Shown here one piece after another: positions 9,313 to 12,859 of a DNA stretch of 64,000 nt; positions within the stretch are counted from its first letter, which is position 1; every line of letters starts with the position of its first letter. The notes under the pieces are model-generated. The model worked only from the letters and a program-made list of their open reading frames with translations, made no database searches and had not been told where the DNA came from. A program made the position numbers and the translations under genes. This DNA comes from Haloferax denitrificans ATCC 35960 (GTDB taxonomy: Archaea > Halobacteriota > Halobacteria > Halobacteriales > Haloferacaceae). Location of the stretch: NCBI RefSeq assembly GCF_000337795.1, contig NZ_AOLP01000019.1, forward strand, positions 124,001-188,000, written 5' to 3'.

Positions 9313-9879
9313 ATGTCAGGCCGCGTATATCGACTCCATTCGACGTTGGAACTGCCACTCGAAGACGTGATGGACTACTTCGAAAACGACCCAGAACTGC
9401 CGCCTGAGGTCGAGAACGTAGACATCACCCGCCGAAACAACACCCTCATCATCAAAGCCGTCTCCGCCGACGACAACCTCAGCAAGTACACGCCGACGGC
9501 CCAGTTGAAAGCGAGCGTGACGGAAAACCGCGTCTACGAAGAAGAGCCCCCCCGAGCGGGAGCGCCCAGCTGGGGAGATGAAGAAGAAGAAGAGATTCCC
9601 TCCGAACTCGTCGAGTTCGCCTGCTTCAAAGGCGACCTCGAAACCGTGCTCCAGAACACGGCGCTCCAGTACCCGATGTTCCTCGTCCTCCGCGAGATTG
9701 CGATGCTCTCGGAGAAGGGGACGCTGACCGCCATCACCGAGGAGAGCGACGAACTGCAGGCGACGCGCATCGTCGAGGGCGAGGTGCGTGCCGCCTCCGT
9801 CGAAGTCGTCGAGAACCCACAGCAGAACGGCTCGTCGGACAGCGGAATCAACTGGCGCGACAACAAGTTCATCTCCTAA
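9313..9879 (+). CDS. Conserved haloarchaeal protein of unknown function
   Basis: A 188-residue acidic soluble protein. The first 80 residues are a compact alpha/beta stretch (VYRLHSTLELPLEDVMDYFE), followed by an acidic linker (WGDEEEEEIPS). A second conserved-looking segment (FACFKGDLETVLQNTALQYPMF) may be a helical pair. The tail GINWRDNKFIS is polar and flexible. There is no signal peptide or membrane segment, and I do not recognise a catalytic motif. It has its own promoter and a leader, and no obvious operon partner. Confidence 0.75.
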   Translation: MSGRVYRLHSTLELPLEDVMDYFENDPELPPEVENVDITRRNNTLIIKAVSADDNLSKYTPTAQLKASVTENRVYEEEPPRAGAPSWGDEEEEEIPSELVEFACFKGDLETVLQNTALQYPMFLVLREIAMLSEKGTLTAITEESDELQATRIVEGEVRAASVEVVENPQQNGSSDSGINWRDNKFIS

Positions 9880-10016: not shown

Positions 10017-10994
10017 ATGTCGGAAGCCGAAGCCTTCCCGGACTACCTCGACGTCGACTACACCGACGGCGAGGGAGAAACGCCGGAGGACTACCCGAGT
10101 ATCGAGGACAAAATCGAGAAGGCCATCGAGGTCACGAAGCAGGGGCTCGAACAGTACGAGAACCCCGCCGTGATGTGGACCGGTGGCAAGGACTCGACGC
10201 TCACGCTCTACTTCATCAAGGAAGTCGCGGAGCGCTACGACCTCGACGTCCCGCCGGCGGTCTTCATCGACCACTACCAGCACTTCGACGAGATCATGGA
10301 CTTCGTCGAGCACTGGGCCGACGAGTGGGACCTCGACGTCATCTGGGCGCGTAACGAGGACGTCGGCGCGTACGTCGACGAGAACGGCCTCGAACCCGGC
10401 GACGACATCCCGGTTTCCGAACTCTCCGAGCACAACCAGCACCACATCCGCAACATCCTCGAGTACGAGGAGGACACGTTCCCCTTCCTGCTCGACACCT
10501 ACGTCGGCAACCACCTGCTGAAGACCGTCGCGCTCAACGACACGCTCGAGGAGTACGACATCGACGGCGTCATCTCCGGCGTCCGCTGGGACGAACAGGA
10601 GGCCCGCGCCGACGAGACGTTCTTCAGCCCCCGTCACGACCCCGACATCTACCCCCCGCACGACCGCATTCAACCCATCCTCCAGTTCGAGGAGAGCGCC
10701 GTCTGGGACGCCTTCTGGTACTTCGCGGTCCCGGACACCGTCGAGAACTACCCCGAAGACGGCTACGTCCCGACGAGCGACACCGACCTCCCCGAGGGCG
10801 TCACGCAGGAGGACGTGCCCGTCTCGCCGAAGTACTTCGCCGGCTTCCGGAGCCTCGGAAGCGAGGTTTCGACCGACAAGTCCGCCGAGGAACCGGCGTG
10901 GCTACAGGACATGGAGAACACGACCGAGCGCGCGGGCCGCGCCCAGGACAAAGAGGACCTGATGGAGCGCCTGCGCGACCTCGGCTACATGTGA
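10017..10994 (+). CDS. CysD/PAPS-reductase-family PP-loop protein, paralog 1
   Basis: Adenine nucleotide alpha-hydrolase fold with the PP-loop WTGGKDSTLTLYF near residue 56. Later motifs are arranged as in the ATP-sulfurylase small subunit CysD: SGVRWDEQEARADETFFSPR and QPILQFEESAVWDAFWYF. The 325-residue protein has no cysteine, so it lacks the catalytic ECGIH motif of PAPS/APS reductases; a reductase role is unlikely. CysN, the usual CysD partner, is not in the window. It is followed by a close paralog and by dph6. I infer an AMP-forming activation of an unknown substrate. Confidence 0.85.
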   Translation: MSEAEAFPDYLDVDYTDGEGETPEDYPSIEDKIEKAIEVTKQGLEQYENPAVMWTGGKDSTLTLYFIKEVAERYDLDVPPAVFIDHYQHFDEIMDFVEHWADEWDLDVIWARNEDVGAYVDENGLEPGDDIPVSELSEHNQHHIRNILEYEEDTFPFLLDTYVGNHLLKTVALNDTLEEYDIDGVISGVRWDEQEARADETFFSPRHDPDIYPPHDRIQPILQFEESAVWDAFWYFAVPDTVENYPEDGYVPTSDTDLPEGVTQEDVPVSPKYFAGFRSLGSEVSTDKSAEEPAWLQDMENTTERAGRAQDKEDLMERLRDLGYM

Positions 10995-11116
10995 CGACGG
11001 TCGATATCTAACGCGAACGTCGCCACGCGGTCACTTTTTCGCGGCCCCGCTTCGAGAGCGGCTGCGACCGTCTCACAGCGGAAACAGCGATATGCTCTGC
11101 GAGCGAGTTGTGTTGT

Positions 11117-12070
11117 GTGTCTCACACGTTCCCCGACTACCTCCACGTCGACTACGACGACGGCCGCGAGCAGACCGCCGCGGACTACCCGACGCTGGCG
11201 GACAAACTCGAAAAGGCGGCGGCGGTGACCGCGACCGCCCTCGAACAGTACGAGCGCCCGGCGGTCATGTGGACCGGCGGGAAGGACTCCACGGTCGTCC
11301 TCTACGTCGTCCGCGAGGTCGCCGCCGACATGGGTGTCCCCGTGCCCCCGGTCGTCTTCATCGACCACTTCGAGCACTTCGACGAGACCGAGGCGTTCGT
11401 CCGCGAGTGGGCCGACCGCTGGGACCTCGACCTCGTCGTCGCCCGCAACGAGGACATCGCACGTCTCGGCGCGTCACCCGGCGACGAGATTCCCGTCTCG
11501 AACCTCGGCGACGACACCCGACGCGAACTCGCCCGCCTCGGCTACGAGGGCGAGACCATCGTCCTCGACGCCGACAGCTTCGAGGGCAACCACCTGCTGA
11601 AGACCGTCGCGCTCAACGACACCCTCGAAGACCGCGGTTTCGACGGCGTCTTCTCGGGCGTCCGCTGGGACGAACAGGAGTCTCGCGCCGACGAGACGTT
11701 CTTCAGCCCCCGCCACGACTCCGAGAAGTACCCGCCGCACGACCGCGTCCACTCCATCCTCCAGTTCGAGGAGGCCGACGTGTGGGCGGCGTTCTGGGAG
11801 TACATCGTCCCCGACTCGGTCGAGGGCTACCCCGCGGGCCACGTCCCCGCGTCCATCGACGACCTTCCCGACGGCGTCGAACCCGCCGACCTCCCCGTCT
11901 CGCCGAAGTACTTCGAGGGCTACCGCTCGCTCGGCACCGAGTCCGGCTCGGGGAAGTCCGACGACCGCCCCGCGTGGGCGCAAGACCTCGGCGCGAGCGC
12001 GGAACGCGAGGGCCGCGCGCAGGACAAAGAGGACCTGATGGGTCGGCTCCGCGATTTGGGGTATATGTAG
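11117..12070 (+). CDS. CysD/PAPS-reductase-family PP-loop protein, paralog 2
   Basis: Tandem paralog of the preceding gene with the same motifs: WTGGKDSTVVLYV, SGVRWDEQESRADETFFSPR, HSILQFEEADVWAAFW and the identical tail RAQDKEDLM-RLRDLGYM. Start taken as GTG at 11117 (MSHTFPDYLHVDY), which aligns with the paralog's MSEAEAFPDYLDVDY. An in-frame TTG at 11108 would add two cysteines found nowhere else in the family. From GTG the protein is 317 residues and cysteine-free. Retention of two full copies suggests divided specificity or regulation. Confidence 0.85.
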   Translation: MSHTFPDYLHVDYDDGREQTAADYPTLADKLEKAAAVTATALEQYERPAVMWTGGKDSTVVLYVVREVAADMGVPVPPVVFIDHFEHFDETEAFVREWADRWDLDLVVARNEDIARLGASPGDEIPVSNLGDDTRRELARLGYEGETIVLDADSFEGNHLLKTVALNDTLEDRGFDGVFSGVRWDEQESRADETFFSPRHDSEKYPPHDRVHSILQFEEADVWAAFWEYIVPDSVEGYPAGHVPASIDDLPDGVEPADLPVSPKYFEGYRSLGTESGSGKSDDRPAWAQDLGASAEREGRAQDKEDLMGRLRDLGYM

Positions 12071-12148
12071 CCTCACGCGAGTCACGCAGACGCGGGGCCG
12101 CCGCGCGAACACCGTAGCGCCTAACTCCTCCAACACGCTATCGCCTCC

Positions 12149-12859
12149 ATGACAGCCGAGTGGGTCAGCCTCTTCTCCGGCGGAAAGGACTCCTCGTGGG
12201 CGCTCTACCGCGCGCTCGAAGAGGGGTTGAACGTCACCCGCCTCCTGACCGTCCACCCCAGCGACGACTCGTATATGTACCACGTGCCGGCAACGGACCT
12301 TGCCGCGCTCGCCGCCGAGAGCACCGGTATCGAACTCGTGGAGGTCCACCCCGGCGACCTCGAAGCCACCGACGCCGCCGACTCCGGCGCGCAGGGCGAC
12401 GCCGAACTCGAACCCCTCGAAGCGGCGCTGTCGGACCTCCAGTCCGACATCGACCTCGCGGGCGTCACCGCCGGAGCCATCGAAAGCGAGTTCCAGACCG
12501 ACCGGATTCAGGCGATGTGCGACCGCCTCGGAATCGACCTGTTCGCCCCGCTGTGGCAGGAAGACCCCCGCGAACTCGGCGACGCCATGCTCGCGGCGGG
12601 CTTCGAAATCACCATCATCCAGGTCGCGGCTCACGGCCTCGACGAATCGTGGCTCGGCCGGACGCTCGACGCCGACGCGCTCGACGAACTGGAGGCGCTC
12701 AACGAGCGGTACGGCGTCCACATCCTCGGCGAGGGCGGCGAGTTCGAGACGCTCGTCACCGACGGCCCGCACATGGACCGCCCCATCGAACTGGAGTACG
12801 AGACGGAGTGGGAGGGGACCCACGGCAGGCTCCGCATCACCGACGCGTACCTCGGCTGA
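12149..12859 (+). CDS. dph6: Diphthine--ammonia ligase
   Basis: PP-loop ATPase that performs the last step of diphthamide synthesis on elongation factor 2, amidating diphthine. The 236-residue protein opens with WVSLFSGGKDSSWALYRA and has the family's GEGGEFETLV and PLWQEDPRELG motifs. It is the length of the archaeal enzyme, without the C-terminal YjgF-like domains of eukaryotic Dph6. CCTAAC about 28 nt upstream of the ATG fits a leaderless promoter, so it is probably transcribed separately from the CysD-like pair. Confidence 0.9.
   Translation: MTAEWVSLFSGGKDSSWALYRALEEGLNVTRLLTVHPSDDSYMYHVPATDLAALAAESTGIELVEVHPGDLEATDAADSGAQGDAELEPLEAALSDLQSDIDLAGVTAGAIESEFQTDRIQAMCDRLGIDLFAPLWQEDPRELGDAMLAAGFEITIIQVAAHGLDESWLGRTLDADALDELEALNERYGVHILGEGGEFETLVTDGPHMDRPIELEYETEWEGTHGRLRITDAYLG

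Follow-up and report, generated by a model that had tools for sequence, protein, structure and literature searches.

A CysD-like PP-loop protein as a candidate ATP sulfurylase for haloarchaeal sulfation

Introduction

Haloarchaea are characterised by sulfated lipids and glycans, and the question of which enzyme activates the sulfate for them is raised by a locus of Haloferax denitrificans ATCC 35960. The DNA analysed here (the window) comprises 64,000 nucleotides of contig NZ_AOLP01000019.1 and carries three consecutive PP-loop genes at positions 10017-12859; these and all features described below lie on the + strand. The first two, here named A (10017..10994, 325 aa) and B (11117..12070), encode tandem paralogs sharing 61% identity, and the third encodes Dph6. 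An initial annotation of this stretch described A and B as CysD-like proteins and left their reaction open. The evidence collected here points to the reaction of CysD itself, in which adenosine 5′-phosphosulfate (APS) would be formed from ATP and sulfate without a GTPase, probably for the sulfation of glycans and lipids.

According to one study, sulfated lipids were detected in 7 of 7 cultured strains from three orders (PMC10704169), which means that sulfate must be activated there. In a second study, Agl30 and Agl31 are presented as two demonstrated haloarchaeal sulfotransferases with an alkaline-phosphatase fold, and Hfx. volcanii expressing either of them sulfates its own glycan (PMC11980604). 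Therefore, a sulfate donor exists in that host. The words 3′-phosphoadenosine 5′-phosphosulfate in its abbreviated form (PAPS), adenosine and ‘sulfate donor’ are absent from the main text of this source. No sulfate-activating enzyme was assigned to haloarchaea in the open-licence PMC literature searched, nor was a published function found there for the A and B genes of Haloferax; the C-terminal tail described below was itself not searched for.

Results

In a sequence comparison against NCBIfam, CysD models ranked first for A with an E-value of 1.3e-21, the best reductase model reaching 1.3e-6. A profile search of the PDB likewise returned CysD as the first match (1zun, 9.5e-15), with flavin adenine dinucleotide (FAD) synthase at 1.7e-6. 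The CysD of Niveispirillum (L128), whose gene directly precedes a CysN-CysC fusion, was used as the reference, and A is colinear with it from the PP-loop through the C-terminus. Their alignment keeps the blocks GIRxDEQxxRAxExxFSPR, FRSLG and ERAGRxxDxExxxxxRLRxxGY, and A displays the traits of CysD, namely a GKDS PP-loop, a GxRxDExxxRAxE motif and a C-terminal FRSLG...ERxGR...LRxxGY region. The PP-loop TGGKDS of A (residues 55-60, 10179..10196) is invariant in 36/36 and 8/8 aligned rows, and the same loop was read in B at 11273..11290. The RWDEQEARADE motif of A (10584..10616) is equivalent in the alignment to RRDEQATRAKE of CysD, and B reads RWDEQESRADE at 11663..11695. Since A and B score 63 and 66 bits, respectively, against Pfam PF01507 (cut-off 22.5), their family assignment is not due to chance. 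The best reading of these comparisons is that A is homologous to CysD, in agreement with the initial annotation, and probably works like it, and we infer its reaction on this basis. A is not filed as CysD because both the CysN partner and the model score cut-offs fail. Structure prediction, which had been proposed as a check, yielded a model of A with a mean pLDDT (predicted local distance difference test) of 76.5 and weak parts. A PP-loop enzyme fold was recovered, but CysD, FAD synthase and the reductases could not be told apart in the comparison; the predicted structure matches PP-loop enzymes generally and not CysD in particular.

Database records name relatives of A ‘phosphoadenosine phosphosulfate reductase family protein’, a label that the initial annotation regarded as contradicted by the sequence, and rightly so. 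A contains no cysteine, and B contains none when translated from GTG 11117. The longest open reading frame (ORF) of B, 11108-12070, uses the alternative start TTG 11108 and would bring two cysteines; as homology begins only after these two extra residues, GTG 11117 is the likelier start. Cysteines are absent in 31 of 36 aligned family members, while the other five have one each, at a position that is not conserved. The ECGIH reductase motif with its catalytic cysteine is missing from both A and B, and at the sites of the Fe-S cysteines (CC...CxxC of APS reductases) A shows GN and GSEVST. With these cysteines missing and the TGGKDS ATP loop intact, the identity of A and B as PAPS reductases was rejected. 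A PF01507 search of the genome found A, B and one NcsA-like protein only, with no CysH-type protein among the matches.

The absence of CysN, as claimed in the initial annotation, also held when the search was extended to distant genes, no match exceeding the cut-off in any of the 12 genomes tested (0/12). In the window genome the best matches to the CysN model scored 295 and 289 bits (cut-off 336), and both are EF-1alpha paralogs (G000:C12:107245-108456, L006, and G000:C9:400638-401849, L007) that are 88% identical to each other. Neither CysN nor the classical ATP sulfurylase Sat (PF01747) was found in the window genome; Sat is present in 7 of 292 Halobacteria, and its model gave no match in Hfx. 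volcanii, which was included as a control. Among the seven genomes with a true APS kinase, three also hold Sat, and G022, G087, G057 and G118 are without a Sat match. In G022 and G118 the APS kinase is fused to a cytidylyltransferase-like domain and adjoins a sulfotransferase-like gene, in the absence of Sat (L132:1063-1923, L135:1072-1932; the fusion was checked with Pfam in G022, L132). G021, which lacks A, has neighbouring Sat and APS kinase genes and is one case fitting the displacement of A by Sat. Within these searches, no candidate other than A was found for the synthesis of the sulfate donor.

A was matched in 289 of 292 Halobacteria genomes (G108 and G171 being counted on fragments at contig ends), with an identity mostly of about 80-88% among the matches listed, and it is a core haloarchaeal gene. 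The genomes without a match are G021, G220 and G259. The protein from the window is 100% identical to its Hfx. sulfurifontis counterpart. In a phylum-wide sample of 392 genomes, 84 match A at 1e-20, comprising 80 Halobacteria and four others (G318, G527, G309, G300). Relatives with 35-37% identity are borne by plasmids of two Desulfolutivibrio species (L122, L123), where they are flanked by a tatA-like gene and chemotaxis genes, and none were found in phages or viral contigs. In the tree, B forms a single clade (support 94/81, rough values as the bootstrap had not settled) that splits off before A diversified, which suggests that B is an old duplicate retained in some families. In Halorientalis pallida, a tandem copy with the decayed PP-loop WTADRDST lies beside A (L079:11395-12111).

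The genomic surroundings of A were analysed as well. In one genus of 35 genomes (g2), which may be Halorubrum, a PF01663 gene of the alkaline-phosphatase superfamily lies directly beside A in 30/30 loci, 28 pairs being divergent and 2 tandem, with a distance of at most 250 bases in every case read. The g2 genomes G008 and G015 (by coordinates) and G171 (by a fragment) agree with this adjacency, G108 not being judgeable, and G259, the g2 genome without A, is also without the PF01663 ortholog and has only a 62% paralog. The A homolog of G527, an archaeon only distantly related within the phylum, likewise follows a PF01663 gene, at a distance of 42 bases. Furthermore, extra copies of A sit among sulfatase-type, alkaline-phosphatase and glycan genes, for example on Halopiger and Natrinema plasmids. 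Compared with 40 control windows at chosen round positions in 10 genomes, alkaline-phosphatase-superfamily genes were found near 4/9 extra copies versus 1/40 controls (p 0.0027) and glycan genes near 5/9 versus 0/40 (p 6.6e-5), p values that are optimistic since the extra copies come from related genomes. L199 and L200, the loci that supplied the queries, were left out of this test; with them, the counts become 5/11 and 7/11, respectively.

Both A and B end in the tail LRDLGYM (10971..10991 and 12047..12067, respectively), which is common to APS kinases and sulfotransferases. When gene-like ORFs were scanned for [LIVM]..LGY ending no more than 3 residues from the protein end, 100 of 2712 carried the tail, namely 85 A/B proteins, 5 APS kinases and 10 sulfatase-superfamily proteins, of which three fall below the Pfam cut-off and one is PF01663-type. 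This set took in loci picked for nearness to A, and the ORF lists, produced with a composition filter, include some false ORFs. A scan of neutral DNA (888 ORFs from the window, 400 kb of its genome and the 40 control windows) returned A, B and two PF00884 proteins, one in the 400 kb and one in the control windows. Shuffling of 2433 tails led to an expectation of 0.28 chance matches. While one comparison was biased by mostly tail-bearing queries, the tail-first ORF scans provide the fair test. The tail was present in 6/6 stand-alone APS kinases that were read, one of them with a longer end. Two classes are free of the tail, namely the fused APS kinases of L132-L135 and, in g2, the PF01663 protein encoded next to A. 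It was also seen at L235, L296, L129-L131 and L175-L177, in PP-loop, APS kinase and sulfatase-superfamily proteins. Two archaeal relatives of A (L276:7831-8580, L277:8861-9622) have the same tail and, in addition to CC and CxxC cysteines, a GGKDS loop that is intact; they may stand between the CysH and CysD types. CxPxR, the motif of true sulfatases, is missing from several tail-bearing sulfatase-type proteins, as would be expected of transferases. In PMC11980604, primers decode to the C-termini HLEDLGYL for Agl30 and LEELGYT for Agl31; those given there for the neighbours VNG1055, 1058, 1062 and 1064 encode no such tail, and KELGYIE of VNG1063H was decoded from a primer of internal type, so that it need not be a C-terminus. 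Agl30 and Agl31 remained active when tagged. Our guess would be that one C-terminal peptide on three unrelated folds serves the docking or channelling of APS.

As to the neighbouring genes, the third member of the row (12149..12859) encodes an ordinary diphthine--ammonia ligase, Dph6, with the PP-loop SGGKDS. It scores 284.6 bits against the archaeal equivalog TIGR03679 (cut-off 197.3), in line with its earlier assignment. Judging from dph6 = HVO_1077, A and B of Hfx. volcanii would be about HVO_1079 and HVO_1078, respectively. The row of A, true B and Dph6 was found in 19/80 loci and is limited to some lineages; as Dph6 lies near A in only 27/80, their adjacency looks incidental. A DUF7110 protein (9313..9879 in the window) is the conserved upstream neighbour of A, its gene being located within 10 kb and always on the same strand in 66/80 loci.

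Discussion

Taken together, we consider it reasonably probable that A, and probably also B, acts alone as a CysD-type ATP sulfurylase that needs no GTPase and supplies APS for sulfation. This reading is based on the full-length homology to CysD, in which the ATP site is retained while the cysteines of the reductases are gone, on the near-universal presence of A in the face of searches that did not find Sat and CysN, on the linkage to alkaline-phosphatase-superfamily and glycan genes, and on the C-terminal peptide common to APS kinases and the demonstrated sulfotransferases. In the proposed mechanism, the PP-loop of A would bind ATP and sulfate would attack the alpha phosphate, leading to APS and pyrophosphate. 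APS would then feed the sulfation of N-glycans and lipids, directly or after a further step, through Agl30/Agl31-like sulfotransferases of the alkaline-phosphatase superfamily; sulfate reduction may be another use of it. What we infer here is the reaction, sulfate as its substrate, APS instead of PAPS as the compound used, and any role of the tail. A more tentative extension, which we hold possible but rather doubtful, is that haloarchaea sulfate from APS itself, with a lone CysD, sulfotransferases of the alkaline-phosphatase fold and no PAPS, and that L..LGY is a common docking peptide joining the enzymes that make APS, phosphorylate it and transfer the sulfate.

Several points weigh against an APS-forming A. 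In the absence of CysN, CysD by itself is regarded as a poor catalyst, and the CysD models score A below their own cut-offs (77.1 vs 195 bits and 60.4 vs 396.6 bits). The fold comparison does not discriminate, with a Z-score of 16.9 for FAD synthase, 15.4 for APS reductase and 14.2 for CysD. The relatives of A in G300 and G309 possess the reductase-type cysteines CC and CxxC, which indicates that more than one function may occur across the wider family. A true (strong) APS kinase occurs in just 7/145 genomes, so that the source of PAPS, if PAPS is needed, is missing. Only a single genome speaks for the displacement of A by Sat (p about 0.05-0.07), and G220, a two-contig genome, has neither Sat nor A. 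In the 80 main loci, which belong to other genera than g2, no relative of the alkaline-phosphatase-superfamily queries was present within 10 kb of A. Finally, sulfatase-type proteins might bear such a tail as a general trait.

Other functions have to be weighed against the same data. Since the fold and the PP-loop leave the substrate unfixed, and FAD synthase is among the closest matches by both fold and profile, A and B might, like other enzymes with a PP-loop, adenylylate a flavin, another oxyanion or a carboxylate. We regard this as unlikely, because FAD synthesis in Hfx. volcanii is already assigned to ribL HVO_1015, which shares 50% identity with the tested MJ1179 (PMC8305020), and because the linkage and the common tail point to sulfate. 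A could also be an ATP sulfurylase solely for reductive assimilation to cysteine, given its likeness to CysD and the 4 NIR_SIR matches in the window genome that could be sulfite reductase. However, A is present in 14/15 genomes devoid of NIR_SIR (sulfite/nitrite reductase) domains, which suggests that its role is not only reductive and not tied to sulfate reduction; the PF01507 matches of the window genome include no CysH-type protein, and the linkage of A goes to glycan and alkaline-phosphatase-superfamily genes. A purely reductive role thus appears quite unlikely.

A pairing of B, or A, with a second EF-1alpha as a home-made CysD/CysN has the attraction that, among the 12 genomes searched for CysN, a second EF-1alpha occurs only in three B carriers (G000, G078, G022). 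Nevertheless, this copy looks like an ordinary duplicate in view of its 88% identity to the first, A occurs in genomes with a single EF-1alpha, and the second-copy pattern follows lineage, which makes such a pairing highly improbable. That A and B are APS/PAPS reductases, as the records label them, has next to no probability: the PF01507 match and the cysteines of the G300 and G309 relatives would speak for it, but both proteins lack any catalytic or Fe-S cysteine and retain the ATP loop.

With A, a near-universal and highly conserved gene labelled as a reductase becomes a concrete candidate for haloarchaeal sulfate activation, one that is open to tests in a standard laboratory archaeon. The L..LGY tail would offer a simple marker for finding sulfotransferases that use the product, and, should APS be the donor, sulfation would here proceed with no need for PAPS.

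In comparison with known systems, A and B share the PF01507 domain and the fold of the CysH APS/PAPS reductases but, unlike these, are without ECGIH and the Fe-S cysteines and retain an ATP-type PP-loop. Their neighbour Dph6 is likewise a PP-loop ATPase, yet of a separate family. The likeness to CysD, subunit 2 of the GTP-dependent ATP sulfurylase CysDN, runs over the full length of A, which differs in two insertions (at about residues 117-150 and 235-265) and in having no CysN partner found. Agl30 and Agl31, compared through their primer-decoded ends, have no known sequence relation to A apart from the common L..LGY tail and are predicted consumers of its product. Sat, acting with APS kinase, has a fold unrelated to A, yet its reaction and product are the same as those predicted for A, and the stand-alone APS kinases of haloarchaea bear the same tail.
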